From: Shewanella psychromarinicola | GTDB lineage: Bacteria; Pseudomonadota; Gammaproteobacteria; Enterobacterales; Shewanellaceae | Direction of reading: 5' to 3' | Length of the DNA stretch: 64,000 bases | Assembly (NCBI RefSeq): GCF_003855155.1 | Contig: NZ_CP034073.1 | Span: 62,001 to 126,000, forward strand | In this document: piece after piece, positions 14,561-33,300 of the stretch | Layout: every line of letters starts with the position of its first letter | How positions within the stretch are numbered: the first letter of the stretch is position 1 | The notes under the pieces: model-generated | Databases searched by the model: none | Seen by the model: the letters and a program-made list of their open reading frames with translations, nothing else | Told to the model about the DNA's origin: nothing | Made by a program: the position numbers and the translations under genes

Positions 14561-14697
14561 TACAACCTCAAAACTAATCATCAGAGAATAAGCTTATATT
14601 ACGCTTGCACTTTGTTTATATATATCCAATTATATGGAACATTCGTTCAGAAAAACTAAACGACTTCTTACTTAACAACAGAGCCTGACGACATTCG

Positions 14698-15600
14698 ATG
14701 AATATTTCGCTGAAACAGCTCAATGTATTTACCAGTATAACCCAGCATAGAACCTTAACGGCTGCCGCCGAGGCGTTGCATTTATCTAAAGCGGCGGTAA
14801 GCATGGCACTGGCTGAATTAGAAAAACAACTCGGCCATCCGCTATTTGACAGAGTCAATAACCGCTTAATTCTTAATCAAGAAGGACACAAACTATTACC
14901 CCTTGCCGACGAGCTGCTTAGTAGAGCAAATAATATCAGTCAATTGTTTGATGCAGACCACGCTTTTTCGGGTCAATTAAAAATAGGTGCCAGTGATACC
15001 TTAGGTAACCATGTTGTTCCTGGGCTACTGAGTCAATTTCGGCATCAACATCAGCATTTCTCTCAAAGCGTAGTAATTTCCAATTCACGGCTAATTTGCC
15101 AAAAGCTGCTGGATTACGAGCTAGACATAGGCTTAATTGAGGGTAAAAGTCATTATCCAGAACTTATAGCAAGCCAATTTAGCAATGATAAAATGTGTAT
15201 TATCGCCGCGTCTCATTTACCGATAAGCCAGCAAACGCAATGGAAGTTTACCGATTTAGCACGAAGTGAATGGGTATTGCGTGAGGCAGGTTCAGGCTCG
15301 CGAGAGTTTTTTTTGCGCACCATCGCACCGCAAATAGAGTCTTGGCATGAAGTGTTCGAACTTAACACTACAGAGGCCTTAATTAACAGTGTTGCTGCGG
15401 GGCTAGGTTTAGGCTGTTTATCGACTTTAGCGGCCCAATATGCCATAAATGATGGCCGAGTAACTCAGCTTAGTTTACCTAAAGCTACTGATAACATTGA
15501 TATGCAACGACCCTTTTGGTTGATGGTACATAAAGATAAATATCATAGTCCTTTACTGAAAAGTTTTATTGAATTTTGCCATCAGTGGGACAATACATAA
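14698..15600 (+). CDS. LysR family transcriptional regulator
   Basis: 300 residues: N-terminal HTH (LKQLNVFTSITQHRTLTAAA, then LSKAAVSMALAELEKQLGHPLFDR) and a LysR substrate-binding domain ending at SFIEFCHQW. The SGQLKIGASDTLGNHVVPGLL stretch resembles CysB/YeiE-like members. It is transcribed away from the TDT transporter with a short gap of about 137 bp, the classic arrangement for a LysR regulator and its target. The inducer is unknown. Confidence 0.9.
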   Translation: MNISLKQLNVFTSITQHRTLTAAAEALHLSKAAVSMALAELEKQLGHPLFDRVNNRLILNQEGHKLLPLADELLSRANNISQLFDADHAFSGQLKIGASDTLGNHVVPGLLSQFRHQHQHFSQSVVISNSRLICQKLLDYELDIGLIEGKSHYPELIASQFSNDKMCIIAASHLPISQQTQWKFTDLARSEWVLREAGSGSREFFLRTIAPQIESWHEVFELNTTEALINSVAAGLGLGCLSTLAAQYAINDGRVTQLSLPKATDNIDMQRPFWLMVHKDKYHSPLLKSFIEFCHQWDNT

Positions 15601-15676
15601 AGTAGCTACCCCTTATGCAGATAATAAGGTTTTATCTGTTTTATAAAATCTGCCCATTTACATTTGAGTTTAGGAT

Positions 15677-15696
15677 ATGGCCTGCGGCCACTAACG
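15677..15696. repeat. Dispersed repeat core (left copy)
   Basis: The 20-bp core atggcctgcggccactaacg recurs with two changes at 16780-16799, on the other side of the IS1595 copy. The surrounding 100 bp here (including cattccggcatggctttt) look like the dispersed intergenic repeats of this genus. Confidence 0.6.
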
Positions 15697-15784
15697 CTTA
15701 AGATCGCAAGGTTCCACCCTGCACGGGCCCATTCGACCGTCATTCCGGCATGGCTTTTGAGCTGGAGTCCGGCTCATTCTTTTA

Positions 15785-16758
15785 CATGCCTATGCACTTG
15801 GCTCAGTAAGAATGTATTGGCGTGTGAATTATTGCCAAATTTAACAATCTGTTAGGTATTTCTCTTTCCATTTGTCTACGATTGAACCGATAACAGAACT
15901 CGCTCAGGTATTCTTGTAGGTACTTTCCTGAAACACCATGGAATGTCCCAAGTAAAAATGCTTTTAAGTTACCAATGGCAATATGAACCCAAGGCAGCCA
16001 TTCATCAACAAGCTCACTGGGGGTAACCCTCGCTTCATGTTGTTGAGTTTTATCTATAATGTTCAACGCAGGTAAACCGTCTGTATGCACTTTTTGCTGT
16101 CTCGTTAAGTGTTTGGCAACGAACTGTTCAACACTATCATGGCAAACGCTATTCACAGCCTGCATAGCAATAAATCCAGCTCTTTTTCCTTTGCTTTCAA
16201 CGGCAACTAAAACAGGTGTTTTACCTCCAGCTCCACGTCCACGCTTGCCCTTGCTTTTGCCACCCACTAACGCATCATCAATTTCAATGACCCCTGACAG
16301 TCTATATAAGCTGTCTCTATGGCCCATAGCTGTTCTCAGCTTGCTTAATATCAAACGTGCCGTTCGCCAATTAACTTCAATGTGCTTGCTCAGTCTTAAT
16401 GCTGAAATACTGCCTTTATCTGAGCCTAAAAAGTAGATAGCCCAAAACCACTTAGTGATAGGAATACGGCTACCGTGGAATAATGTGTCTGCTGTGACCG
16501 ATGTTTGTTTATGACATTGACTGCATTCATATAAATTGCGGGTTGTAAGCTCATAGGCATGCTCACAAGAGCATCTAGGGCAAACAAAACCATTAGGCCA
16601 TCTCATTTTCTTAATGTGATTTAAGCAATCAATTTCAGCGCTGAATTGACGTTGCCATTCAAAAAAACTCGTTTCAGGCATTTTCATAGCAAATCTCACT
16701 TCTAGTCTTGATTTATACTATAAGAATAAGCCAAAACTGACTCAGATGCATAGGCATG
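15785..16758 (-). mobile_element. IS1595-family insertion sequence, copy 1
   Basis: A 974-bp element with imperfect terminal inverted repeats (catgcctatgca at the left end; the complement of tgcataggcatg at the right). It is flanked by the perfect 8-bp target duplication ttctttta (15777-15784 and 16759-16766). It carries a single transposase. It is nearly identical to copy 2 at 29314-30287. Confidence 0.92.
15803..16699 (-). CDS. IS1595-family transposase (copy 1)
   Basis: 298 residues. A zinc-ribbon (CPRC at about 40 and CSQC at about 60) precedes the ISXO2-like DDE-type domain: first Asp in VIEIDDALVGG, second in VHTDGLPAL. The third position seems to be Asn (HIAIGNLKAFLLGTFHGVSG), as in some IS1595 subgroups. 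The frame is intact, so the copy may be active. It differs from copy 2 at a handful of residues. Confidence 0.92.
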   Translation of the reverse strand: MRFAMKMPETSFFEWQRQFSAEIDCLNHIKKMRWPNGFVCPRCSCEHAYELTTRNLYECSQCHKQTSVTADTLFHGSRIPITKWFWAIYFLGSDKGSISALRLSKHIEVNWRTARLILSKLRTAMGHRDSLYRLSGVIEIDDALVGGKSKGKRGRGAGGKTPVLVAVESKGKRAGFIAMQAVNSVCHDSVEQFVAKHLTRQQKVHTDGLPALNIIDKTQQHEARVTPSELVDEWLPWVHIAIGNLKAFLLGTFHGVSGKYLQEYLSEFCYRFNRRQMEREIPNRLLNLAIIHTPIHSY

Positions 16759-17086
16759 TTCTTTTATGATTTAAGTTTTATGGCCTGTGGTCACTAACGT
16801 CGTGGCGCTTCGCCCACACCAGACCAAGAAGAAACCAACGGCTGTTCCCTCTTGGTTCTTTGTTAACGAATTGGCCCAGCCGCCCCGCAACATTTTCCCT
16901 ATGGATTAAACAACAGCTGCGAAAAGGTCGTGATGGGGATTGATCCAGCTTTTAACTTCATTTGCAGACTGCTTCGGCCCATCTTGCAGTAAAGAGTGAA
17001 AATGCTAACGCTTCCGATGGGGATCTGATAGGCAGGATGCCTGAATGCCTTGTAGCACATGGATGTGCGAGAAAGGCCTGTCAGGC

Positions 17087-17124
17087 TCACGCATTCTTTT
17101 ATAAAAAGTCTTCAACGGCCTCAA
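17087..17124. repeat. 38-bp direct repeat, copy A
   Basis: The sequence from tcacgcat to cggcctcaa is repeated 68 bp further on (17155-17192) with about two or three mismatches. On the minus strand each copy ends an open frame in EAVEDFL then TAA, so the repeat may be a duplicated gene end. Confidence 0.7.
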
Positions 17125-17154
17125 TTTTTATTGAGCCTGAAGCTATGGGTCAGA

Positions 17155-17192
17155 TCACGCATGCTGTTATAAAAAGTCTTCAACGGCCTCAA
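17155..17192. repeat. 38-bp direct repeat, copy B
   Basis: Second copy of the repeat at 17087-17124. On the minus strand the frame leading into it reads LRRAKLMVDLEAVEDFL before TAA and is open for only about 33 codons. A remnant; no family recognised. Confidence 0.7.
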
Positions 17193-17309
17193 GATCAACC
17201 ATTAATTTGGCTCTTCGTAAATGAATATGACGGACTCGTTTGTGTCCCAAAGCTTGTTAGCACTAAAGCGCTATAGCACCCAGCATTAGTATAAAGGTGA
17301 GTATGCTCA

Positions 17310-19043
17310 TTACTCTTCCTCTAAATCATACGCAGGCAAGGTCGTAAGTCGATTATCATCGATCGGGCTACCCACAGTGAAGTGGTAGAAACTTTGCCAC
17401 TCGCGGGTTTCGATGCCGAAGGCCGTATGCACTGGGTCATCGAAGTAGCAGCCGATCCCGGTGGCGCCAATGCCCGCCGCCTCGGCCTCAAGGTAGAGCA
17501 CTTGCCCGATCATTCCGGCCTCCCAGAACAAGTTCCGGTAAAAGCTGGCGCCATAGGTCGCCAGGCTATCCATGTAGTCGGCGAGCATGGCCAGGCTAAA
17601 AGCGCCATCTGCGGCGATGTTCTGGCCGCAGGAGACGGTACTAGCCAGCGTTCGACAGTCGCCTTTTCGCAGTAGGTATAAGGGCAGTCCACTCGGGCAG
17701 TCCGGCACGCGCTGCCAAGAAAAGTCGGCATGCATCACCCGCTTAAGGGTCTCCACCTTGAGAGGATCTCTGATCAGCGCGTAGATGCCCGGCACCAATC
17801 CGTCGACGCGGTGCACGAACAGCCCTAGATGGATGCGAGAGCGCCAGGAGAGTGTATCCCAAGGCATTGCTTGATTCTCTTTAGTTGGCATCAGTCGGCC
17901 GAGCATAGCAAAGAATGTTGCCCGCGAGATCGCCGTCGTGCCATCCATTGCGACCGCACTGCGGCGACCAATAATCGCCCGCTCCGCAGTGAGCTCGGCC
18001 TCACCGATGTGGCCACTATTAGGGGTGACGAGCAACGCATCCGCCGAGGGAAAGCCTGCGAAATCTTCTTTAATCGGCGTGCTGGCGCAGCTTCGTATCG
18101 CCTGTGTAACTGTGTCGATTGCGGGCCACGCCACACTGTTGGCGGGGCTCAGCGTGTTGGCCCTGCCCTGCCAAAGTACGTCACTACCGTGAGCTGTCAA
18201 CGGCGTAGATTTCATCAATGGAGCGGCGGTTATATCCGCTACGGCTACATTCGGTGAAATCACTGCGAGTAGGTCCGCTTCCTCGCGTTCCGCCGCCGCG
18301 AAATCCTCATCTCGGTCTAGCCCAAGCAGGTTGGCAAGGGTGGCATCACTGATGTTGCCTTGCAGCACCAATGTCCATCCAAGCGCCGCTGCCGCGATAC
18401 GCAGACTGGCCAGCGCGTGCCCAACATCATGCTGGCAGTAACGGAACGCGCGCTCACCATACTTCCAAGCTTCACGCCATTGCACCGACGACAGACCAAC
18501 CAAAAAAGAGCCCTCAGGGAAAGAACCCTCACCAAAATACTCAGTCAGTTCGGACCACCGCGCAGCATTGAGCACCGCGCGCCGTTCAAGCGCGTGCTCC
18601 CTCGGCGCATAATGGTACAAGGCGGGCGTAGCGCCGATCTGCTCAATCTCAGGCAGTAGGGCATAGCCCTCGGTTGGATGCAGATTTCCGCTCGAGGGAT
18701 TGACCCGCAACGGCCACTTGGTATCACCAGATTTTTTCCATGCCGTCAGCGACAGTGCATAGCGGAAAAAAAGCGAGACCGACGCTAAAGACAATGGCAT
18801 CGGCGGCACGCTCGCGCTCACATAGAGCTGCCAATAGGGTAGCGGGCGGCCCAGCTTCGGCAGCGGGAGACGTACAAGATCCGCTCCTGCGTAACGCCTA
18901 AACGGATCGGGCTGCGTCGCCCAATCCATGTAGCCCAGTGCGGCGGCATAACGGTGAAAGTGATGTTTACTCCGCTCGTGGTAAGCGACAACAGCCTCGT
19001 CGGCAGAGGTATCCATCTCACCGACTAATGTTTGAGAAGTCAC
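17310..19043 (-). CDS. SagB/ThcOx-type double nitroreductase-fold dehydrogenase
   Basis: 577 residues with two nitroreductase-like domains, about 75-265 and 330-560. The first has [18 protein letters not shown], the typical SagB/ThcOx flavin-site block (R-x-x-P-S-x-G-x-x-x-P). The second has [36 protein letters not shown] and [11 protein letters not shown], again family hallmarks. Such FMN enzymes oxidise azolines in peptide natural products, but many occur outside those clusters, and no precursor, cyclodehydratase or transporter is seen here. It overlaps selO by 4 bp, so the two are co-translated. GC content and codon use are clearly higher than in the AT-rich neighbours, suggesting acquisition. 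Confidence 0.8.
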
Positions 19044-20788
19044 GACGAACAGCTCAAATACGACAAACCACCGACGGCAAAAAATTCAGATGCCTTGAGT
19101 CGATAGTATTTGTCTTCCACTTCCTGGGACTGCTCTGCGTAAGGCTGCGTCATGACGGCCTGTAGTTCTCGAACGAGCGAGTAATCACCCTCGCTCGCTT
19201 GGCTGTACGCAGGAACAAGCAACCACTCGCGCAAGCTGTATTTTGGGTTGACCAGTTTCATTTGCCTAGCGATCTCCTCACGGGTGTGGGGCTGCCCTGT
19301 CTTTGCATCAGTTTTCGCCTCGGTGCTGCTGCCGACCAGTGATTGCCATTGTGTAAGCCAAGCTGACCAGCGCAGGTCCAGTCCTTCGGGGGCTCGCTGC
19401 AAGTCCTGGTAGAAGCTTTTTTTCAGTGGCTCAATATCGCTAGGCAGCGCCGAAAGCTCGCGGAAGAATATGGTGTAATCAACAGGGGTTTGCACCATAA
19501 GTGTTTCGAGCTCATTAAATAGCGCTGGATGAAAAGTGCTAAGTCCAAGCTTGGCAGCCCACATCTGCTCCATTTGTGCTTGCATCTCGGTCGAAAAGCC
19601 ATTTACCAACTGCTGGAGCTGTTCCAAGTCATCTGGCTTAGACGCCAGCAATGGGCTTAATGCAGTGCAAAACATCAGGAAATTGCGTTCCGCGGCTACG
19701 GGTTGATTGAGAAAAGCGAAGTGCTGTCCGCCACCCGTCCAAGGCTGATATTGCGGGTTGAACACATCGCAGAATCCGAAGGGACCATAGTCGAGTGTGA
19801 AGCCACCAGCTGCGCAGTTGTCGCTGTTGAAGTTGCCTTGGCAATAACCGACACGGATCCAGTTTGCCACCAATGAAGTCAGGCGGCTACGGAACTCGCG
19901 CGCCAGTAACAGCACTTTTTCGGCGCTGGTCAGTTGCTGGTCGATAACATCCGCGTATTCTCGTTCGACTAAATGCAACATCAACTGTTCAAGCTCCTCC
20001 AGCGCTTTGGGGTGTTCCTGCTTGCGGGCGCGGCGGCCGAAGAGCTCGAGCTGACCGACCCTAATAAACGAGGGTGCAACACGCGTCGAAATAGCAACAG
20101 CCTCCGTTATAAGTCTATCGGGATCGGGCGAGTGCGAGCCCTGGGAGTACCACGGCCGCTTGACCGTCTCTGTTTTAGACACATACAAACTCAGCGAACG
20201 AGACGTTGGCACGCCGAGCGCATGCATATGCTCCTGTGCTAGGAACTCCCGCACACTCGACCGCAGCACGGCGCGACCGTCCGCGCCGCGGCAATATGGC
20301 GTGCGGCCACCCCCTTTGAGCTGCATTTCCCAGCGTTGACCCTTGATGACAGCTTCAAGCACGGAAACAGCGCGGCCGTCGCCGTAGCCATTGCCGGTTC
20401 CAAACGGACATTGCTGGGTGTATTCGGTGCCGAAGATGGACAGTGCATACCCACACGCCCAACCGACCTTGCGCATCGGCTCCGGCACCTGCGAGATGTC
20501 GCCGGAGAACATGCGAACGAAGTCAGCCGACTGCGCCATGCTGTCTGCAAAACCCAATTCGCTAAAAAAGGTTTTGCTGTGCGCAACGTACTCTGGGTCT
20601 TCAATGGGTGTCGGCTTAACGGGGACGTAGTGCCCCGTGAATACTTGTCGCGGCACATAGTCGATGCCATTTTGTTTCGCGTCAGGATCGCCGTTGAGCG
20701 TGTCCATGAGTGAGTAGTTGGCTAACTTAGCGAGATCGTCGAGTGTCGCGACGGTTGGGGAAGTTTCCTGGGACAGTTGATTTATCAT
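19040..20788 (-). CDS. selO: SelO/YdiU-family protein adenylyltransferase (pseudokinase)
   Basis: 582 residues. SelO pseudokinases transfer AMP from ATP to proteins. Seen here: a glycine-rich lysine loop [20 protein letters not shown], the S-S-x-R-E-F motif after it, the metal-site segment [11 protein letters not shown] with [12 protein letters not shown], and the C-terminal end SCSS that matches the redox Cys (selenocysteine in animals) of the family. Compared with E. coli YdiU (GAGPTPYSR, NTDN) it is a divergent variant, with a Thr/Lys-rich insert near 505. It overlaps the SagB-like gene and is GC-rich like it. The pairing hints at a shared redox/AMPylation role (inference). Confidence 0.88.
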
Positions 20789-21149
20789 AGGGGTACCTCA
20801 TGGATTGGGTAGAAGGGCAGTTTCCCCGCTGCGAGGTCCATCGCATCGACGATTGTTCGATTTATGGGGCGAACCTTTTCAGCATAACGGCGAAGGCTTG
20901 TCGCTGGAGCACCTGAGAAAACGCGCATCCCAGGTTGCTAATGTAAAGCTTGCCTTGCAGGATCGAAATCTTGCCATATGGCCATGAATCACCATGATCG
21001 ACTCCTTGCAGAATGTCAGCTCGCTCTTGGCAATAATCATGTTGGCCACCCAGGACATAACAAGGGGTAGCTGGGCTAGCGGCGATCCGGCTGCTCGTTT
21101 TTTGTTGCAAAAAAAGAGGGGCCGTCAGGCTCTAGGTTCGACTCCAAAA

Positions 21150-21404
21150 GACCTTACACGTATCAGAGACGGCGAGCAAAGTCTCCACGAAAATGCTGAT
21201 GGACAAGCAAGGAATCAGACATTCTGTCTAATGGAACGATTTTTCAGAAGTTATCAAACTGAATGGACGCCCAAACATGAGTATATCAGTTTTGTATAAG
21301 CAAATGATGATATTCCGGATGATATACTGAAGCACTCCAATACAATACGTGATCATGGTTATAAGAATTATATGACTCCAACAGCAGCCGAAATGGCCGC
21401 GTAA
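21150..21404 (+). pseudogene. IS3-family transposase (orfB) C-terminal remnant
   Basis: One frame reads MERFFRSYQTEWTPKHEY, then a TAA at 21297-21299, then IRDHGYKNYMTPTAAEMAA and TAA at 21402-21404. Before the stop is the C-terminal M-E-R-F-F-R-S-x-K-T-E-W block of IS3/IS150-type OrfB; after it is the usual end with H-S/G-Y-N-x-x-x-T-P. The N-terminal two thirds are absent and the frame is interrupted, so it is dead. Confidence 0.75.
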
Positions 21405-21512
21405 AGATGCATCGCCTGTTTGTATACAGATTGAGTTGACCACATCACACGTTACATGTCAGGAAGATTAATTATTGCAAATAAAAAGTACATGTAACTA
21501 AAATTTAGATTT

Positions 21513-21665
21513 AAAAGTTAGAAAACCCTTTAGCAGCAAGGCTTGCGAGATTGTTATCTAATTTTCTTTGTAGCTATCTAACTTTTCACCATCTTTCTTT
21601 ATCTTGAATGGGAATTAAAAAGTTAAAAATTAGATAGTATTGCGTTCGATAACATCTAACTTTTT
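21513..21665. repeat. Cluster of atctaactttt motifs in both orientations
   Basis: The motif occurs forward at 21576-21586 and 21654-21664, and in inverted form at 21513-21521 and 21617-21637 (aaaagtta ... tagatag). It lies just upstream of the two-gene cassette and could be recombinase or regulator binding sites, or chance in AT-rich DNA. Confidence 0.4.
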
Positions 21666-21945
21666 GACTGACTCTGTCGTGCAGCAAATTAGTCCCATAA
21701 TTCAGCTTTTCATCTAGGTTGACATCGTAACGCACAATTGGACAAAAATGATTTAGAGCATTTGCCCAATTTCGGTTATATAAAATTAGTTTTAGTAGGC
21801 CACTACAGGTTAGATCGCAATGTAGTACCAAAAAAAGTTACTTATTGCAGTGTTGAAGAAGACTGATTGACTGTCTCAATGGTAGACTTGTTGCGTATTT
21901 AACTAAGCGTGTCTGATTGATACGCTCCAATCAAATAAGTGCAGC

Positions 21946-23112
21946 ATGATAACAAGAATATTTATTATGATAGCTCTATTGCTATCAACAGCGATATTCG
22001 CTTCGGAAAGCTCTCAGACAACTTCACAACTAGAGAAAAAAGCTATCACAGCGGAACAACTCTCAAAGCATCTAGAAGAGCTCACAACGAAACTTGAAGC
22101 TGTTTCTAATGAGAATGCAGAGCTTAAAAACTCTATCACTCACAACATTGAGAAAGTGCAACAGCAATTCACGCAGATCAACACTAAAAATGCAGAAATA
22201 GCTCAATTTCTCAAAGAGCAGAATCTGGATTATGAATCGCTCGAAAAGCGAGATGTGGACTTGAAACTGTTTATGGATTCACCAAATAAACCAGCTTGGA
22301 TTAATTTTGTAGCAGTGATAGTCAGTATTGGTGGTTCTATTGGACTCTCACTCTATTTTCTTAGGGGAACATTAAGAAGAGAAACACACAAACAAATTCT
22401 TGATAGTAGAATTAATGCTCGAACAAGAAAGGCTGAGCATTTAGACCTCCTCAAAGCACAACAGAAGCAAAATGATGATTTGCTGAAAAACCAAGTTCAA
22501 CTTGCCAAAAACGAACAGGATGAGCATCACAAAGTTGTAATTGATGAATTTCGTCAAAAGTGGATTAACACCTTTCGAGATGAAGCTAGTAGTTATGTCA
22601 GAGTCGCAACTCAATTGCTCAATTTCTATGAAATCGAAAAAGATATACTTGTGATAGTTAAAAGTTTGAAAAGTGCTGAAAGACAGTGCGCTAATTTTCG
22701 AGATGAATTCAGTAAAGGAAATAGCGGATTTCCACGAATCCTCTTAGAAAGCAACAATGATGATTACAAAGAATTAAAAATGCACGAGAGGCAAGCAAGA
22801 GAAGACTTTGACAGTATCAAAGCCACATATGCAGAGCTTAAAAAACTTGAATCTGAACTAATAGAAAAGAAAATTAAGATTAGTTTTTTGCTTAATCCAG
22901 ATAAAGACGCAAACAGTTTAAATGATAGAGCTTTTGATGATGAAATATTAAAATTAGCAACCCATATAAATGATGCATTTATCTCCGAACAAAGGGTGTA
23001 CCAAGCACTTACAAACGAACCTGATATCAAAGAAAATCTCAAAAAGTTTCAGTGCATCGTACCCTTAATGCTTAAAGCTGAATGGGATCGAGTGCAGAGA
23101 AAACAGCAATAA
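21946..23112 (+). CDS. Exported coiled-coil/membrane protein of unknown function
   Basis: 388 residues, family not recognised. Order: signal peptide (residues 1-20, hydrophobic IMIALLLSTAIFA then SES), a charged coiled-coil region (about 25-105), one membrane helix (about 116-140, WINFVAVIVSIGGSIGLSLY) followed by basic residues (LRGTLRRE), and a cytoplasmic helical domain of about 245 residues with FRQKWINTFRDEASSYV and KISFLLNPDKD. The R-Q-K-W-I-N-x-x-R-D-E helix recalls uncharacterised proteins near phage and defence genes (impression only). It is followed after 54 bp by a HEPN-like gene. AT-rich codon use, unlike the SelO pair. It may sense at the envelope and signal inward (inference). 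Confidence 0.6.
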   Translation: MITRIFIMIALLLSTAIFASESSQTTSQLEKKAITAEQLSKHLEELTTKLEAVSNENAELKNSITHNIEKVQQQFTQINTKNAEIAQFLKEQNLDYESLEKRDVDLKLFMDSPNKPAWINFVAVIVSIGGSIGLSLYFLRGTLRRETHKQILDSRINARTRKAEHLDLLKAQQKQNDDLLKNQVQLAKNEQDEHHKVVIDEFRQKWINTFRDEASSYVRVATQLLNFYEIEKDILVIVKSLKSAERQCANFRDEFSKGNSGFPRILLESNNDDYKELKMHERQAREDFDSIKATYAELKKLESELIEKKIKISFLLNPDKDANSLNDRAFDDEILKLATHINDAFISEQRVYQALTNEPDIKENLKKFQCIVPLMLKAEWDRVQRKQQ

Positions 23113-23166
23113 CAAACACCGCGATAAAATTGTCGTATTACTTCTCGATAAATAGAAGGTGTCAAA

Positions 23167-23742
23167 ATGAACAAACTCGAAATAGCACCTAATATGCTTT
23201 ATCGTGCAGCTAAATCGTACATTGAAGCTCAAGATGATTTCGACTACATCCAAGCAATTCTACTTGCAGGTTCTGCGATGTACATTTGTGAACCATTACT
23301 TGAAGAACAAGGACTACCGACACAAGCGAGAGAAAGAGCGGATCGAATTATCAAACTACGTGAAGCATGTGTAAAAATGGATAACAACAAACTCAAAATA
23401 ACATGGGATGCAAAACTATTTACTGAGAGGAATAAAGAACACATTAGGTGCGTTTCGCGAGTTGAAGATAGAAAGGTATACAACGCGTTAAAACACTCAG
23501 GTATCTTTGGCTTTGATAAAAAAACTAGAACAAGATACACGAAAAAAAAAGCAAGTGATGATCTCGAAATGATTGATATCTTGGGTGAAAACCTTGATTT
23601 TCGCACAGCAGCAGAAGATATAATAATCGATGCAATTCAAGATTATAAAAATCTAGATTTCAACGGTAAATTTAAACCCTACAATTTGGGAATTGAGATC
23701 CGCCGCGTACTTGATTGTATCTACCTAGAAGACGCTTTCTAA
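23167..23742 (+). CDS. Small HEPN-like protein of unknown function
   Basis: 191 residues, soluble, mostly helical. The first 50 residues (AAKSYIEAQDDFDYIQAILLAGSAMYICEPLL) resemble the first helices of HEPN-like domain proteins, in which a pair of helices with L-A-G-A-A-E is typical. RKVYNALKHSG at about 105 is the place where such proteins carry R-N-x-x-K-H; here Arg and His are spaced wider than in the canonical Rx4-6H RNase motif, so catalysis is uncertain. A GAAGGTG ribosome site lies before the ATG. It probably forms an operon with the membrane protein upstream. Confidence 0.55.
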   Translation: MNKLEIAPNMLYRAAKSYIEAQDDFDYIQAILLAGSAMYICEPLLEEQGLPTQARERADRIIKLREACVKMDNNKLKITWDAKLFTERNKEHIRCVSRVEDRKVYNALKHSGIFGFDKKTRTRYTKKKASDDLEMIDILGENLDFRTAAEDIIIDAIQDYKNLDFNGKFKPYNLGIEIRRVLDCIYLEDAF

Positions 23743-23835
23743 TAACTTCTGGTAGGGCTGGTACATTAATAATTTGTGAATGAGTTTAGACTCTGAGTAG
23801 AAATGGGGCAATAACGACTTAGAGTGGTTAATTAA

Positions 23836-23964
23836 AGTTACGAAAATGGACAACAAAAAGCACAACAAAATCTGGCTGCATTTCAAAGCTGGAGTGCTAC
23901 TCAACAAGACGACGACTTTAAACAAATACTACATAGAGGTCAGATGACCTCCTTCTTGATTTAA
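23836..23964 (+). pseudogene. Truncated frame with a TnpC-like N-terminal look
   Basis: The frame has no start codon and reads NLAAFQSWSATQQDDDFKQI, then LHRGQ, after which it diverges and stops at 23962-23964. The wording resembles the N-termini of small mobile-element proteins that continue with an HTH (impression, not verified). The break point near 23943 lies just before the stop of the convergent TnpC-like gene and may mark an element edge. Confidence 0.35.
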
Positions 23965-23984
23965 GTTACACTTTTCAAGTTGAG

Positions 23985-24383
23985 TTATATTTTGATACTC
24001 TTTACATTGCTAGAATGTTGTCTCGTTACCGTTTTATAGCGATGCAGCTCCCACGTTAACTGAGCCACGGAGGTCGCCATAACTTTCATTTCCTCCCTGA
24101 ATTGGTCATTCTCAGCCCGTAGCCGCTTGTTTGACTCGACCAAGTCGTCATGTTTCTTCTTATCAACCTGCTTCTTTTTTGTGGGCAGCCCCTTATTAAC
24201 CACTTGAGGATTAGGATGAAAATGAGCTTTTTCCGCTAAAATCATATCCAGCAAGGCGGGGTGATTTTTACATGACCCGTTTGCCACGCCAGCGCGTTTC
24301 TCTACAGCGTAAGGACTGATTTTTTTGCCTTCTTTCTTCAAGGATTCAAAGGCATTCATTAGTTTCGTTTTTACGTTCGCCAT
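23985..24383 (-). CDS. TnpC-like small helical protein of the recombinase operon
   Basis: 132 residues. The N-terminal half has an HTH-like segment (KISPYAVEKRAGVANGSCKN, then HPALLDMI) and the C-terminal half a leucine/charged coiled coil (ESNKRLRAENDQFREEMKVM). This layout matches DUF6262/TnpC proteins of Tn554-type elements, which assist the paired tyrosine recombinases. Its start overlaps the stop of the preceding integrase gene at 24383, so it is the last gene of the four-gene operon. Confidence 0.65.
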   Translation of the reverse strand: MANVKTKLMNAFESLKKEGKKISPYAVEKRAGVANGSCKNHPALLDMILAEKAHFHPNPQVVNKGLPTKKKQVDKKKHDDLVESNKRLRAENDQFREEMKVMATSVAQLTWELHRYKTVTRQHSSNVKSIKI

Positions 24384-26287
24384 TACAATGCTCCCAGTTC
24401 AAACCGTTCAAATTCAATACTGTGATCACGCATCACCTTCTCCGCAGCACGAATATCAGACAGTTCACGAGCAAGTGTGTTCTGGTTATAGAACCCCATC
24501 TCTTTCATTTGTTGCATCTTCATCCCAATCCTTTGATGACGATTTTGCCAACGAGTTGCTTCGGCTTGATTGATATTTAAGCTTTCACACTCACGACCAA
24601 CACAAGTCGATGGTTCAAATAAGTGGCCCATACTGCACTTCTCACCCGCAAAACATGTACCGTAACCTGTTGATTTATTTGCCCCTTTAGTTTTTTTGAT
24701 AAGTTCATTAAATTTCGCTTCTGACATTACTCTAGGATCGCCATCAAATGATTTAATATACCCTCCTGATTGTTCATCAGGGTTATCCACTATGTCCTTC
24801 AAGTAGATTATATGGTTTTCCATTTCAGCGTCTTCAATCGCTTTTTTAACGCTGGCAGGGTTCTCTATCCCTAGCAGTGTCAACACATCTGCATGACTGG
24901 CGTAAATGGCGGTCATAGACAAGTTTATATGCTTAAACTGATGCTTTAATGCAGCCAATGTTACCAAGCCATTTCCGACGACAAAATGAGCAAAAGTCCG
25001 CCTGAGTGAGTGAGTCGAAAAATGCCAATAAAACGTTCCGTCTTCTCGCGCTTTAATTGGATTGGATAGAGCTGGCACAACGGGATTTAATAAACGATAA
25101 ATCTCATCCATTTCATCGGGTTCGTATGTAATATCAAGGTTTTTTGAGAAGCGCGTAAATAATTTCCCAAGGTTAGTGGTGTTTAAATCAGCATCTTTTA
25201 ATTGGCTGTTGATGTTATTGCCAGAATTCCTGATTTCATCAAAACTGAAGCGTGGTGAGCAATGAATGTCGCCTTTGTTTGAGCGATATTCGTCATTTAG
25301 TACGATTAAGACTTCCAGTGCCTCTTTACAGATAGGCGCACATGCCCAAGCATCTTCTCTTGGCAACTTCTCCAACTTGCGCGTCCAAGAGCGCAAGGTA
25401 CACAGCTTCAAGCCATCAAGTTCCACTTCTTTGTAAGAGGTAGCATTGATTTGCGTCAACTCACAGATACGCATCCCTGTAAATGCGGAGAGTGACATAA
25501 AACAAGCCCCCTCTATCATCTTAAATTGATCTACAGCTTGTCGCTCTGTTCGTCCGTATTTTTTTGCATAGGATTTCACATCCCTAAGGTCTGCCAACTT
25601 TTTGTGAGCCGCTGTCACATCTTTCATTAACCGCCCCATGAGCTGCTCATAAATGACAGGGATGATCGTAGGATAATGACCTTTTCCTGTTGCTGAGTAT
25701 AGCTTGGCGATTTGGTTGATCGACTTACCCTCTGGAATGCCTAGTGAAAAGTGTGATTACTCTGGAAAGTGCTTATTGACTTGCGTTAGCACACTCAAAG
25801 ATTGTAGATAAATTTTTACGCTTTTTTCACTGAGGTTTTTTGAATCATGGAGTAACTGATTAAAAACCAATTCATTGCTTAATAAAGAAAAGGAATCAAT
25901 AGCAGTGCCCTTAAACACTCTCAACGAACTATTTACCTTTTTTTGTATGACTTGGCATTGACTGAATTTGCGAAAAGTTTCTCCTTCCATGCTCAATAAT
26001 TCTCCTTGAGCGCCCCAAATCAGAAAATAGATGCGCTGCTTTAACTCCAACAACAGCTTAGGGTTGTGCTTATCTGGATGGAAGTTGATTTGGTATAATG
26101 ATTTGACTTCATTGGTGAGATTAAAGAACGCATTATAATCCCATTTACCCTGCCCAAAATATGAAACAGGGTTTCCGTTTTTATCCACACTGACCACCGT
26201 TTTATCATTGGGCATCACAAACTGGCCTGATGATTGTGGTAATGCGTATTGCTCAAACTTGCTCAAGTCCATACTGATACTGTGCAT
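24383..26287 (-). pseudogene. Tyrosine recombinase (third of trio), broken by an in-frame TAA
   Basis: One continuous frame of 635 codons except for a TAA at 25757-25759, after NKHFPE and before SHFSLGIPEGKSINQIAKLY; both sides read as integrase. The N-terminal part (176 residues from 26287) lacks the catalytic domain. The C-terminal part has the recombinase residues: Arg in SAFTGMRICELT, H-x-L-R-R in HSLRRTFAHF, His in LKHQFKH and Tyr in SMTAIYASH, then a Cys-rich tail (CFAGEKC, CVGREC) likely to bind zinc. By size and position it is TnpB-like. Either a nonsense mutation has killed it or it is made as two pieces. Confidence 0.75.
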
Positions 26288-26290
26288 AAC

Positions 26291-28036
26291 TTACCCCCTA
26301 AATATATCCATCACTGAATCTTCATCCCATAACGGGTGACACTCGCGCTCGAGCAGCTTCATGGCTGCCTTTAAATGCGCTTTCTTGAATCGCTCCTTGA
26401 GTTTATTGAGGTTGGCTTTTACTTCACCAAAATTTGTGATGAAGTGTTCTACACTTCGGTGTGCACCCAGCGCTTCATTCAGTCGCTTCTCAAAAGACAG
26501 TAATCGCCATATATCATGAGGCTCATCTACCACGCCAAAGTTCGTGCAGGAAAAACACTTTACGACAAAACCACAACCCAACTTGGACTGCTCTTCTTTT
26601 GAAAGGAGACCTGTACGCGCTATGTTCTTTTGAAACTCCATTTTTTCGGGCGTATCAGCCCCTTTACAGAAGCCGCCATTATTAATCTCAACAGCTTGTT
26701 GCTCAGTATCTTTAGACATCTTAAGCGCCTCCCATTCCTCGTGAGAAATAACGACACCAGTGGACTCTTTAGCCTTTGCAACGGCAACAACAGCTCCGCC
26801 GTCAGGGTTCTCGCCCAAATAATGTAATGCAGTCAAACCAAACGCCAATTGCTCACAGGCTTCACCCTTTGAGACTTTGCCATAGTTTGAACTATCGTAG
26901 GTGCCAGGTGCATTACGGGTGTTTTCAGCGGCTTTCTTTCTTCCCATCTTGTGTTCGGCATATTGCTTAATGGATGACTTCAATAAATTACAGTTCAAAC
27001 GGAAATCAGGATTTTTTTCGATTAAGGATTGAATGCGTGAAGAGTCCTTGACCAAATAATTTTGAGCATAACTCGATAGGTTCATGTTTGATGGCGCTGC
27101 ACCGTTCATTTTTCTAAACAGGTAATGATTATCCAATCCTAACGAGGCGGAATGGGCTTTTGATAGGGCAAGGTGTGATTCGAAAAAGCTCTGACACGTC
27201 GCCCTTGGTGTGAAAGTACGAAGCTCAACTGTGTAGCCCCGCGTTTTAAGCCCTTCAATACTGATGCGACCTGCCCCTGATTTTTGGCACACCCACTCAT
27301 CTTCCAGGAACATATTCAAGGTTTCTGTTTGACCCGTTCCTAAATAATAAATCGTCAGGAATACCCCATTACAGACCAATCTATCGAAGGCTATCCTTCT
27401 TTTAGCTTCCGTTAAGGTATTATCCTGATACCGCTTTAACAGTGCCTTGCGGTGTTCTAACAACGAAAAGCCAATGGAGCGAAGTATCTTGGGTGTGTAG
27501 TTAGCGCAATCCAGTGAGGCTGATGCAGTACCAAGGTTCCGAGCCGCTTTAGGGATTTGTCCGAATCCAAATTTTTTGCAAATTGAATTTAAGTTCGAAC
27601 CCTGCCAGCCAAGAGTCTTTGCGCGGATAGGTTTATCATGTAACCCTTTACCTGTGCTGGCCATTGATAGGTATGTTGCATGGATATACTGAGTACATGT
27701 TTCAGACGAAAACTCGACTTTTGCTTTTCGCTTGCCACTTTGAGCATTGAAAGCATATTTAATAATCATTCCAATATTTCTGAAATGTGCAGTCTTGCTT
27801 GACTCTCGCCAGCCAGATTGTTGAAACTTAGAAATCAATAAACGAATGTGTTCATCTGTGGCATAGTCTTTTAAGACTGCAAAGTCACACGTTGAACGAC
27901 TCCCAGATCCATTTTCCCAAACGTATCTCCACTTGGTAATGGTGGTCAGAGTATTATCTGTGACCATCTCAGACGTTGGTGTAGAGCGATAGCTTCGAGC
28001 ATTATCCTTAACGTCGGTATCGACAAAATCAGTCAT
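26291..28036 (-). CDS. Tyrosine-recombinase-like protein (second of trio), degenerate active site
   Basis: 581 residues. It has the layout of a recombinase, but the catalytic positions are altered: the place of the first Arg (G-x-R-x-x-E) reads LGTGQTETL, and no clear H-x-x-R/Tyr set is visible. A Cys-containing segment near 505 (CGFVVKCFSC) may bind zinc. It overlaps the upstream integrase by 4 bp and is followed by the third after 3 bp, so it is co-translated. It probably serves as a DNA-binding partner in a multi-recombinase complex (inference). Confidence 0.6.
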   Translation of the reverse strand: MTDFVDTDVKDNARSYRSTPTSEMVTDNTLTTITKWRYVWENGSGSRSTCDFAVLKDYATDEHIRLLISKFQQSGWRESSKTAHFRNIGMIIKYAFNAQSGKRKAKVEFSSETCTQYIHATYLSMASTGKGLHDKPIRAKTLGWQGSNLNSICKKFGFGQIPKAARNLGTASASLDCANYTPKILRSIGFSLLEHRKALLKRYQDNTLTEAKRRIAFDRLVCNGVFLTIYYLGTGQTETLNMFLEDEWVCQKSGAGRISIEGLKTRGYTVELRTFTPRATCQSFFESHLALSKAHSASLGLDNHYLFRKMNGAAPSNMNLSSYAQNYLVKDSSRIQSLIEKNPDFRLNCNLLKSSIKQYAEHKMGRKKAAENTRNAPGTYDSSNYGKVSKGEACEQLAFGLTALHYLGENPDGGAVVAVAKAKESTGVVISHEEWEALKMSKDTEQQAVEINNGGFCKGADTPEKMEFQKNIARTGLLSKEEQSKLGCGFVVKCFSCTNFGVVDEPHDIWRLLSFEKRLNEALGAHRSVEHFITNFGEVKANLNKLKERFKKAHLKAAMKLLERECHPLWDEDSVMDIFRG

Positions 28037-29241
28037 GATAACGCCTCATTCTCTAGTAAATTCGTCGTTATCTCAGGGATTAGATTCTTCTCAGGGTTAC
28101 CCTCGTAGTGCTTTAGATACAACATCGTAGTGTCCAGGTCTTTATGGCCCATTTCGTTTTTAAGTGTTGTTAGTGCTTCCAGCGGAGATAGGCCCGCTAC
28201 TTTAGATAATGACTCAAACTTATTAGCGCCAAAGGTCGCCCTACAGTCATGCTCTTTGTGTTTAAAGTGAGGGTTACTGTTTTCTTGTATCGCGGCTCTT
28301 AACTTACTCCAGAGTGTATTAAGGCTTTGAGTGCTAAAAGCGTCTCCATCTTTATTGATAAAAGCAGGAGGACTCATATCTCCCGTATTCATAAAATAAA
28401 GTTGCTTCCGTTTTTTATATCTATCACTTTGATGATATTTATTCATACCTTCCATCAACCAAATAGGCATTGAGACCTGACGGTCAGTGTCATATTTTGT
28501 TTTGCAATCATGGGCTGGGCCAATCCAAATACTTGTTAGTGTTTTTCCTTTGAACCCCTTGGGAATAGAAAAGTGCTTAGGTTTTATGTCCGTAATCTCA
28601 ACAGAGCGCAGGCCTACTGAGAGCGCTACGCACACCATCAGACGAAACTCCCTAGATAACCCATTGCAGTGCCAGTTCTCTCTAACATGCTGTAGATCAA
28701 GTTTATTTAAGGGTTGTAGATTGGTTTCTTTTGTTTGGCTACGGATTGAGCAATCCGTTAAGTTTTGACCATATTTAGTTACGCCCGTGACGACAAAAGG
28801 CAACTGAGATATATAACCGTGACGGAGGCAAAATATGTAAAAACGCCTCACAATAGAAAGTGCTGCCACTGCTGTACTGCGGCCCAAGTTACCTTTCTCA
28901 ATACTATCGTTCAAATAAGCTCTATAAAGGAAAATGGGGTAACGCTGTAGCTGTTCTTCATGATCATTCCACTTAAGGTTATTAGCCTCCAAGTAACGAT
29001 AATATCTCAAGAGATGAAAGCAAGTGGGTTTTAAGTCTTTAGTTCCCTCAACGATACGACGACTTAGGAAGTAAGCATTTGGTTCAAACACTGGTCTGCC
29101 TGTGCTTGTAAAGAGCATCAGAAGCCCTTTGAATGACATTGGCCTATCAACACTAAAGGTACTTCCATCTACAGATACGTCTACGTCACCAATGCCAATA
29201 TTATCGTTGGTTTCTACGAGGTGGTAAAAATGTTCCATCAC
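28033..29241 (-). CDS. Tyrosine recombinase (first of trio)
   Basis: 402 residues. N-terminal SAM-like DNA-binding region (about 60-165), then the catalytic domain with Arg in SVGLRSVEITD, H-D-C-R in HDCRATFGANKF, His in NEMGHKDLDTTMLY and the Tyr in TTMLYLKHY. All expected residues are present. It is the first gene of the operon; the promoter would lie in the 72 bp before IS copy 2. The size fits TnpA of Tn554-like elements or the recombinase of Gamma-Mobile-Trio elements; which one needs a profile search. Confidence 0.8.
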   Translation of the reverse strand: MMEHFYHLVETNDNIGIGDVDVSVDGSTFSVDRPMSFKGLLMLFTSTGRPVFEPNAYFLSRRIVEGTKDLKPTCFHLLRYYRYLEANNLKWNDHEEQLQRYPIFLYRAYLNDSIEKGNLGRSTAVAALSIVRRFYIFCLRHGYISQLPFVVTGVTKYGQNLTDCSIRSQTKETNLQPLNKLDLQHVRENWHCNGLSREFRLMVCVALSVGLRSVEITDIKPKHFSIPKGFKGKTLTSIWIGPAHDCKTKYDTDRQVSMPIWLMEGMNKYHQSDRYKKRKQLYFMNTGDMSPPAFINKDGDAFSTQSLNTLWSKLRAAIQENSNPHFKHKEHDCRATFGANKFESLSKVAGLSPLEALTTLKNEMGHKDLDTTMLYLKHYEGNPEKNLIPEITTNLLENEALS

Positions 29242-29313
29242 TTACTCCAGACTACCCATATAAAATCTAAGTTTTAATATAGGTTGCAATCTAAGTAAGT
29301 CAACATAAAATAA

Positions 29314-30287
29314 AATGCCTATGCAGTTGGCTCAGTAAGAATGTATTGGCGTGTGAATTATTGCCAAATTTAACAATCTGTTAGGTATTTCTCTTTCCAT
29401 TTGTCTACGATTGAACCGATAACAGAACTCGCTCAGGTATTCTTGTAGGTACTTTCCTGAAACACCATGAAATGTCCCAAGTAAAAATGCCTTTAAGTTA
29501 CCAATGGCAATATGAACCCAAGGCAGCCATTCATCAACAAGCTCACTGGGGGTAACCCTCGCTTCATGTTGTTGAGTCTTATCTATAATGTTCAACGCAG
29601 GTAAGCCGTCTGTATGCACTTTTTGCTGTCTCGTTAAGTGTTTGGCAACGAACTTTTCAACACTATCATGGCAAACGCTATTCACAGCCTGCATAGCAAT
29701 AAATCCAGCTCTTTTTCCTTTGCTTTCAACGGCAACTAAAACAGGTGTTTTACCTTCTGCTCCACGTCCACGCTTGCCCTTCCTTCTGCCACCCACTAAC
29801 GCATCATCAATTTCAATAACGCCTGACAGTCTATATAAGCTGTCTCTATGGCCCATAGCCGTTCTCAGCTTACTTAATATCAAACGTGCCGTTCGCCAAT
29901 TAACTTCAATGTGCTTGCTCAATCTTAATGCTGAAATACTGCCTTTATCTGAGCCTAAAAAGTAGATTGCCCAAAACCACTTAGTGATAGGAATACGGCT
30001 ACCGTGGAATAATGTGTCTGCTGTGACCGATGTTTGTTTATGACATTGACTGCATTCATATACATTGCGGGTTGTAAGCTCATAGGCATGCTCACAAGAG
30101 CATCTAGGGCAAACAAAACCATTAGGCCATCTCATTTTCTTAATGTGATTTAAGCAATCAATTTCAGCGCTGAATTGACGTTGCCATTCAAAAAAACTCG
30201 TTTCAGGCATTTTCATAGCAAATCTCACTTCTAGTCTTGATTTATACTATAAGAATAAGCCAAAACTGACTCAGATGCATAGGCATG
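29314..30287 (-). mobile_element. IS1595-family insertion sequence, copy 2
   Basis: 974 bp, same ends as copy 1 except that the outermost left base is a, not c. It is flanked by the perfect 8-bp target duplication taaaataa (29306-29313 and 30288-30295). It sits immediately upstream of the recombinase operon and may have displaced its promoter. Confidence 0.92.
29332..30228 (-). CDS. IS1595-family transposase (copy 2)
   Basis: 298 residues, intact, nearly identical to the copy at 15803-16699. Differences include Val for Leu before YECSQ, GGRRKGKRGRGAEG for GGKSKGKRGRGAGG, and Lys for Gln in VEKFVAK. The zinc ribbon and the DD(N) residues are kept. The small divergence means the two insertions are recent but not from the same event. 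Confidence 0.92.
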   Translation of the reverse strand: MRFAMKMPETSFFEWQRQFSAEIDCLNHIKKMRWPNGFVCPRCSCEHAYELTTRNVYECSQCHKQTSVTADTLFHGSRIPITKWFWAIYFLGSDKGSISALRLSKHIEVNWRTARLILSKLRTAMGHRDSLYRLSGVIEIDDALVGGRRKGKRGRGAEGKTPVLVAVESKGKRAGFIAMQAVNSVCHDSVEKFVAKHLTRQQKVHTDGLPALNIIDKTQQHEARVTPSELVDEWLPWVHIAIGNLKAFLLGTFHGVSGKYLQEYLSEFCYRFNRRQMEREIPNRLLNLAIIHTPIHSY

Positions 30288-30343
30288 TAAAATAATATCT
30301 AGTTATAATCTAATTATTACTACTTTAAGCGTAAGGTGGGTGT

Positions 30344-30373
30344 AAAAAAGCCCCCTTAATTTGAGGGGGCTTT
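30344..30373 (-). terminator. Rho-independent terminator
   Basis: A stem with nine-base arms (aaagccccc and its complement) and a loop of about 9 nt is followed on the minus strand by TTTTTT. It ends transcription of the GlyGly-CTERM gene whose stop is at 30395. Confidence 0.85.
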
Positions 30374-30394
30374 ATTTAACGTTGAAAAATTAAC

Positions 30395-33300
30395 CTATGT
30401 TCTAGTTGCTCTAATTCTTCTGCGGACAAACACCCCAAGACCAAAGAAACCAAACAACAATTCAATTAATCCTAAACTACCACCACCGCTACTGGTTGAA
30501 ACTGGAGTTGGTTCTATCGTTTGAGCAGGAACACCAACAGTGACGGGATCTATGATTGTGCCATTCTCGACACCATCATCATCAAGGTATCCGCCATCAG
30601 TGATACTCACTTGCACCAAGTTATCGCCGATTAACACCCAATCCGTAGCATCAACCTCAACCGTAGTGCCATCATCCTTGACTTTGAGCAACGCAAACTC
30701 TGTTGGTAAAGCACTGCCAAAATTAATCGTAACGGATATAGTGCTTCCAACCGCAATGCCAGTTACGTTATAACTAAATTGCGGCATGGGATAAGTATAC
30801 TCAGTACCCGTTGCTGTTGTTGCTGAAACAACAATACCCGACACACTTCCTTGATCGACTGTAATAGGTCGAGTTAAATTATAAATAACTGTGCCATCAT
30901 CAAGTATAGTGGTTGGCGCTCCTGCGTCGTCGAGATCTGCTTCTGCACGATAGCGAACCACAGTATCTTCATTGCCAGCTGCATCAGTTGACGTTTCCAT
31001 CCATACTGCATACAAATTTTCACCGTTAGGCTTCATGGTGAGTTGTGATTCAAAATCAGGCTCACCCTCTGGATCTAAAGGAACCGTAACATTAGCGGAT
31101 AACAATTTGAGTGGCTCATAGGTTCTACCACCATCTTTGGTTTTAGTGACAAAAACATCAAGTTCTGCACCAGATTCGATATGAGCATAGGTGTTTTTGA
31201 CAGAACCCCACGCTAATATAAAGGCATTAGGATCTTGACAATTTGTACCTTCAGGCGCATTGACAGGATCACAGGCAGACGTACTGCTTGGTGCACCCAC
31301 AATGCGAGGCTCTTTAATATCGACCTCAGCTTCAGGTAGATAATTAGTCAGGTTTTGGGTACCCGTCCAAGTATGTCCACCATCATAACTACGACGAGTA
31401 AAGAAGTTATAGTTATTTTCGGTAGTGTACTTCGCTAGTGCCCAGTCTGAAGTGTAACTGTAACCAAACAAGATGGTATCACCACGGATAGCGCCACGAT
31501 GTGCACGTGCATCTTCGAGATTATTATTCTCGGTAGTTATCGTTAAGGCTTCAATAGTCTTGGTCGTATCATCACTAGTGACCTCACCGACAGCATTAGT
31601 ACTTAGGTTCATTGCTCCTGAATTATTAATACGATCTGATAGTGTGATTGGGGGGACGTGGTCTCGATCATCATCAGTCAAATAGTAATTACAACCTCCA
31701 GCTTCCTCATAGGTTACATCTAATACTGCATCCCCTTCTGCAATAACGACTACATTACCTAAACCATCAACATAGCCACCGAGTCCATCGGGATACACCA
31801 CTGAACCTGTAGATGTCAGTACATAACGGGTAAACGTAGTAAAACGGGTATCTACCGCGGGTATTAAATCAACCGGAGTCAAGCCTGTATTCACCGCTTC
31901 TGTACCGACCTTACCAATACGGCCCACGATGTCAGAAGGGCCACCTTGGTCATACGCGCCCTCTTTCCAGAAAAACATGAACTTGGTTCCGCTTTGATTA
32001 ATACTCTCATCCATACCAGCGGCCTGATTACCGAAGAAACGTACCCGTCGAGCATTTTCTGCTGGATTACTAATCACACAACCAATACGTGATGGGTCTT
32101 GCCAATCTGGTGACTGGTAAACGTCGCTAACAACGCCCTCTGTGTCTGAATATTCACTTTGTGGGTCAGAACTGGTATTTAGAGTGTCACTATCAGTGAA
32201 ATTGCCCTTAGCACCCGGCTGATTTTGGTTTTTAGCATCACCTGTTGAACTGCCGCCTTTTTGCAAACCTGAACTAAATGCGACATTAATATAACTCGCT
32301 GGTGGCTTGTCGAAAGTAAAACGGTGATAACGGACAACCTTACCAAAATCGACCCCCTCACCACCGCCCTTGGTTTCTTCATAAGCGATGATAGTGACAG
32401 GTTTCTGCCCAGGCACTTGGGCCATACCTAAGTTTGCGCGTGATGCGCCTTCTTTACCTGTTTCTACCAATAATGGTTGAGTGTCTAAACATTCAGGTGT
32501 GGCCGCACAAATCGGATCAAGATAACCCGTTAATTCAGTAACAACATCATCCCCTTCACGTTTTTTAAACTTTTTGAAGTTATTGGTAACACGAGAAACA
32601 TTGGCAGCAAACGAAATATCTGCAAGTGCGGGAGCTTTCATATCTTCAATATAGGTATACCAAATATCTGTACCTTTATTGACATTCGCACCACTGGCGC
32701 CATCTCCCGGACCATCTGCAGTACCGGTTTTTAAACCTTCAGGGTCTTCCTGCCAAACAACATTCCACGCTACTTTTGTACCATCACTATAGCTAGTTGC
32801 ACGGGGTACATTTTGTTTGGCATCACGTTCACCAAAGCTTAATTGCTCACGCTTCCACGTACCGCCTGTAGGTACACCATCTGCATCTATTGCACTAGGA
32901 TTTTTAGTATAGGCGATGTAAGTACAACTAAAAGGCAGTTGTCTTCCTTCACGATCAAGGTAGGTAGCAGCACCCTGATGGTAATTGTAATCCGGGAAAT
33001 CATCATTCAGGTTAGTCACATCGACATCGACTGCGGGACAGTATTTATCATCCCATGAAACAGCCACATGACCGCCTGCTGCAAAGATATTCGGTTTCCC
33101 TGAGTCACCATAAAAATCGCCAAGAGAAATATCTCCATTAACATCCGTTTCCCAGTAGCTTTGTTTCGATGTTCTACGCGCCGTATCAGAAATATTGACT
33201 GGTGCACTCCAAGTAGCGCCGTCATCTTTTGACACGCGGATAAAAATATCCTGAGCAGGACGTTCTTTTTGCGCTTTCAGGTCATAAACCGTTTTACTAT

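Follow-up and report, generated by a model that had tools for sequence, protein, structure and literature searches.

The strand-biased circularizing integrative elements (SEs) SE-6283 and SE-6945 are described, in the available portion of PMC10214605, as having core genes in the order intA-tfp-intB-srap, with overlapping or abutting reading frames and a right-end sequence. That portion identifies the pSEA1 element that carries blaGMA-1 and the tfp product WP_176703888.1 as SE-6945, whose cargo is accordingly a beta-lactamase gene, and presents SEs as carriers of resistance genes. Among HEPN proteins, the closest described counterparts of the protein considered here are AbiV (PDB 9bj7 and 9bj6), a small helical protein encoded on accessory DNA with its motif at the end of helix 3, an acidic residue in helix 2 and, in the part of PMC3710099 at hand, typically no His, and an integron cassette protein (PDB 3jrt), which the same part lists, a HEPN-type protein from gammaproteobacterial integron cassettes. 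Here we describe two adjacent genes, A and B, from Shewanella psychromarinicola (contig NZ_CP034073.1, positions 62,001 to 126,000; we refer to this whole stretch of 64,000 nucleotides as the window). The fold of B and the motifs of its relatives support well that B belongs to the HEPN superfamily and has a changed catalytic position, at which Arg has given way to a Tyr that is nearly invariant in its own clade, and comparison with described elements indicates that A and B are probably the cargo of an SE-type element.

Gene A (21946-23112, + strand) encodes 388 amino acids and gene B (23167-23742, + strand) encodes 191, each from an ATG start and in a frame open to its stop. They lie on the same strand, 54 bp apart, exactly where the original prediction had placed two open reading frames (ORFs), and their G+C contents (0.356 and 0.365, compared with 0.431 for the whole window) bear out its description of the pair as AT-rich. 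Because homologs conserve the entire reading frame of A as well as of B, both are genes and not chance ORFs.

The structure model of B (predicted local distance difference test score, pLDDT, of 93.2) has a helical fold that spans residues 1-189 and matches the four-helix HEPN fold. The proteins nearest to this model are HEPN proteins, AbiV first, and rows 1-6 of the VIA list are all HEPN-type; that list re-examines Foldseek candidates and is not an independent search, and Foldseek of the model against PDB and BFVD returned nothing at E ≤ 0.001. The codons of the variant motif occupy 23464-23496 (+ strand; residues 100-110, EDRKVYNALKH), where Tyr105-Asn106-x2-Lys109-His110 (YNALKH) stands at the end of helix 3 in the place expected for R-N-x3-H; the canonical Rx4-6H motif is absent from B. 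HEPN families without the Arg exist, so this motif is not strictly required (PMC3710099, in the part at hand). Of the 118 listed relatives that include the motif region, 117 have Tyr at the catalytic Arg position, and among five distant relatives the canonical R-x4-H is found in three (RNAVKH, RNGLKH, and RDRLKH) and a Lys at the Arg position in two. With HEPN proteins nearest to a confident model and the canonical motif in three of the five distant relatives, the earlier suggestion that the start of B is HEPN-like is well supported. The accompanying suggestion of an Arg/His pair near RKVYNALKH holds for the His, which all 78 aligned rows share, but not for the Arg, which is present in 50 of them and lies 8 residues before the His, whereas Rx4-6H needs 5 to 7. 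A conserved acid is also present in helix 2 (Glu47, 73 of 78 rows); the window B lacks Ex3[KR] there, and E-x3-K occurs in four of the five distant relatives, with a helix 2 of the AEEILGK type.

B thus resembles AbiV in fold, motif position, helix 2 acid, size, and location on accessory DNA; it differs in the Tyr that replaces the Arg of Rx4-6H, in retaining the His, and in that we did not find a sequence-level match to AbiV. The 78 aligned B rows match 24 families; HEPN_AbiV is absent from these, and HEPN_Apea is matched by two of the rows (best E 0.024). In hhalign comparisons the B alignment scored 0.4% against one AbiV sequence and <1% against one protein with a below-cutoff HEPN_RiboL-PSP match, both weak tests because each target is a single sequence, and <1% against the A alignment. 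The HEPN_AbiV profile has a match in one of 151 genomes, the source of the single AbiV sequence, and the plasmid search added one further partial match; the HEPN_Apea profile matched 0 of the 151 genomes and likewise 0 of 14 control genomes and is hence uninformative. The integron cassette protein 3jrt keeps Rx4-6H, unlike B, and the window B has no attC site and is SE cargo instead; a PDB sequence search returned nothing for the A profile, the B profile (E ≤ 1), or one B relative.

The remaining family scans agree with the earlier statement that the pair matches no known family: no Pfam or NCBIfam model reached its curated cutoff for A or B, PADLOC gave nothing for A and a single weak IetA match for B (E 0.0077), and PHROGs gave weak matches at most. 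A search of ~5.8 billion proteins listed 15 for A and 29 for B, with the window's own protein counted in each; where a source is named, it is Photobacterium or Shewanella for A (including the Shewanella mangrovisoli protein P0014) and Vibrio or Photobacterium for B. Viral contigs held no relative of either protein, phage records no match to B, and plasmid records no match to A; one plasmid match to B came from Pseudoalteromonas.

A is a membrane-anchored protein without a recognized fold. It contains FRQKWINTFRDE and has hydrophobic stretches at residues 1-24 and about 116-141; its model consists of long helices at low confidence (pLDDT only 67.9), and Foldseek of this model against PDB found nothing at E ≤ 0.001. 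Given that positive charges follow the transmembrane segment, we infer a topology of a signal-like segment, a periplasmic coiled coil, one transmembrane helix (~116-141), and a helical cytoplasmic C-terminal part. A had originally been described as a signal-peptide, coiled-coil, one-helix protein, of which the hydrophobic segments and, in the low-confidence model, the long helices were recovered; the compartment layout is predicted. Different parts of A resemble its relatives to different degrees, residues 1-40 being 97% identical to P0002 and residues 121-200 closest to P0004, and this difference in closest relative between segments suggests recombination. Two genomes of one genus (loci L017 and L018) encode a distant relative of A flanked by similar genes of 486 and 408 amino acids; a gene that looks integrase-like by eye is nearby at L018.

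The recombinase genes noted earlier beside the pair are confirmed and lie on the opposite strand. They belong to a set that has the SE core order intA-tfp-intB-srap and, like the described SEs, overlapping or abutting reading frames, and which we compared with the pSEA1 SE and with the element on plasmid plas2 of Vibrio alfacsensis VA-1, in which tfp is annotated in two pieces. The intA homolog (28033-29241, - strand; 402 amino acids) is 76% identical to its plas2 and 55% to its pSEA1 counterpart; the tfp homolog (26291-28036, - strand; 581 amino acids) is 77% identical to plas2 and, over its whole length, 55% to the tfp of the pSEA1 SE; and the srap-like gene (23985-24383, - strand; 132 amino acids) is 81% identical to the plas2 and 57% to the pSEA1 homolog. 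The intB gene is split into two ORFs, unlike in SE-6283 and SE-6945: an N-terminal piece (25757-26287, - strand; 176 amino acids, 70% to plas2 IntB residues 1-176) and a C-terminal tyrosine recombinase piece (24383-25639, - strand; 418 amino acids, 78% to plas2 IntB residues 217-634), with 53% and 62% identity to pSEA1 intB. Because of this split, we regard the element as probably inactive.

A probable right end at 21483-21541, 405 bp upstream of A, aligns with pSEA1 sequence beyond blaGMA-1, where SE-6945 must have its right end (score 51, compared with a best of 32 among 500 mononucleotide shuffles). The probable left end (30290-30330), placed by eye against the sequence upstream of plas2 intA, is cut off from intA by an IS1595-family copy (29315-30286, - strand, ends read by eye; transposase at 29332-30228), an interruption that SE-6283 and SE-6945 do not share. 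As to the motif C/C' termini with a 6-bp footprint that mark an SE, a right-end match is seen, the left end is broken by IS1595, and the exact inverted repeats are not fixed. No ORF of note other than A and B separates the core genes from this right end, which places the pair inside an SE-type element of about 8.8 kb (21.48-30.32 kb, including the later IS1595), with the left end placed by inference. In genome G446, whose flanks are 79-89% identical, lysR (aligned as far as window position 15603) and the gene whose aligned part begins at 30344 are only ~356 bp apart, and an island of 14.7 kb (15.6-30.3 kb) is therefore absent from it; in genome G398 the interval from lysR to 30.4 kb is filled by other genes. 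Scans of 15600-30400 for Rfam families and of 14000-32000 for tRNAs returned nothing; in 21480-24000, promoter-like sites number 7 (shuffle mean 7.0) and terminator-like sites 3 (shuffle mean 1.3, SD 1.1).

On these grounds we tentatively favor, at somewhat less than even confidence, the reading that the pair is mobile accessory SE cargo in which B, a noncanonical HEPN protein, targets RNA or translation and A is a possible membrane partner. B would act on RNA either by binding or by cleavage with the altered residues Tyr105, Asn106, Lys109, His110, and Glu47; by slowing translation under host attack or stress it could protect the population and the element. Where present, A may serve B as a partner anchored in the membrane, either holding it there or passing on a signal from the envelope.

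A reading that we take almost as seriously is that A and B are independent accessory genes that came together by chance in this SE, each working alone. Among 394 genomes sampled from the order, 6 have A, as do 3 of 129 genomes of the genus (own genome counted in each); B occurs in 4 of 394 genomes of the order and 5 of 369 of the class (own genome counted in each) and in 3 of 227 of the genus of the Vibrio sonorensis genome that holds locus L002 (that genome counted). The order count for A includes genome G270, a marginal match over residues 304-357 only (E 4e-4) in an ORF unlike A. The original prediction had proposed looking for the pair in other genomes: a B-family match was found in none of seven other A genomes (G270 among them) and an A match in none of 11 B genomes, in cross-searches with no internal positive control, though the same queries matched elsewhere. 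Neither B nor an obvious partner gene accompanies A in G403 or G431; a UvrD-like helicase gene, recognized by eye, is the next gene after A in G403 and the third after it in G431. Independence is further favored by the ribosome-binding leader of B, which by eye is alike in the window and before the B of L002, and by phylogeny: the paired B proteins form one clade (98/98), but the paired A proteins do not in their best tree (where the window A row is weakly placed). Against it stand the common strand and 54-bp spacing of the two genes and two single contigs (14271 and 4478 bp) listed for an A match and a B match alike; given that the A and B matches come from contigs of equal size, the pair probably recurs on both. 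As each gene occurs without the other, the partnership is facultative.

B-family genes elsewhere appear, from their surroundings, to be widely mobile. Of 13 distinct other loci, 7 have an attC-like site within about 300 bp (L003, L025, L027, L029, L036, L060, and L063) and 6 do not (L002, L004, L026, L037, L061, and L062). The pattern (TAACAA...GCGTTA or GTTAGGC, with end-to-end pairing) was written after some sites had been seen, so the count is descriptive; the background is 2 places in ten sources of about 218 kb, window included. No such site adjoins A or B in the window, which do not form an integron cassette, or any of six A loci. Upstream of the B-family gene at L025 and L026 is a cassette-like start, TATAACTACAAGGA, without a preceding attC-like site, and these may be cassette insertions at secondary sites. 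The gene directly upstream at L026 (8580-9347) has a below-cutoff HEPN_RiboL-PSP match (E 1.4e-5), which places two HEPN-like genes side by side.

At two of the 13 loci a B-family gene directly follows a defense system. At L002, B lies 40 bp behind a SIR2-HerA (Nezha) pair (PADLOC E 7e-81 and 2e-157), which is reported to act against phages through NAD+ depletion (PMC11559045, in its available part). At L037 (2347-17143), in a genome of the same genus, a distant B cousin (KNTVKH) stands directly behind Avs3a/Avs3b, and matches to Wadjet JetD, JetC, and JetA (JetB was not sought) lie beyond it on the opposite strand. A scan of ten further neighbors from seven loci detected part of a type I methyltransferase (L063) and an ORF with a partial pAgo-type match (L025, E 1e-16); the other five loci scanned (L003, L026, L027, L061, and L062) gave no such match. 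The ten window proteins at 17.3-30.2 kb include no SIR2-HerA or Avs3 gene (Pfam and NCBIfam; 7 of 10 also PADLOC). A stretch downstream of B that appeared by eye to be conserved at the Vibrio sonorensis locus scored 30, compared with 36 for the best shuffle, and was dropped.

These neighbors and the loss of the catalytic Arg raise the possibility, which we consider unlikely, that B is a noncatalytic HEPN adaptor that regulates a coupled effector (SIR2-HerA, Avs3, or the membrane protein A); yet such neighbors occur at only 2 of the 13 other loci, 7 of the 13 resemble integron cassettes, and the Avs3 neighbor is from a distant branch with Lys and not Tyr at the catalytic position. Somewhat less doubtful, but still speculative, is the idea that B represents an unrecognized HEPN-derived clade in which Tyr has become fixed in place of Arg, and that integrons and SEs carry this protein, as an immune adaptor or an effector that binds RNA, from one unrelated partner to another (A here, SIR2-HerA in Vibrio, and, for a cousin, Avs3). 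Very improbable is a toxin-antitoxin or element-maintenance pair stabilizing the SE: a two-gene layout on a mobile element would suit it and HEPN toxins beside MNT antitoxins are known (PMC3710099, in the part at hand), but there is no small antitoxin-like partner, A being large and membrane-anchored, and B-family genes occur without A in the 11 searched genomes.

Returning to B as a noncanonical HEPN protein with A as a possible partner, phage defense by the pair is plausible. The original prediction of a sensor-effector phage-defense pair gains from the SIR2-HerA and Avs3 neighbors and loses from the loose pairing. As a whole, it is partly supported. A small SE whose apparent cargo is limited to a membrane protein gene and a gene for a variant HEPN protein suggests that SEs also move conflict-type genes. 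The main text of PMC10214605 has no word starting with "defense" or "defence," and the five papers listed out of 1,059 that contain two of six SE and defense terms lack the SE term, neither being proof of absence in print. The near-invariant Arg-to-Tyr replacement in a mobile family offers a direct test of HEPN function without the catalytic Arg.

The island holds a second foreign-looking unit, which begins beyond its left IS1595 copy and stops short of the right end of the SE: at 17310-20788 (- strand), a SagB-type peptide dehydrogenase gene (TIGR03605) lies beside a divergent SelO gene (PF02696), with G+C contents of 0.58 and 0.55. The two IS1595-family transposase genes (15803-16699 and 29332-30228) are nearly identical by eye and in the same orientation, one copy being at the left border of the island and the other within the left end of the SE. 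At 21322-21447, immediately beyond the right end of the SE, the window has an 82% match to a contig start in another genome of the genus (L054:2-126).
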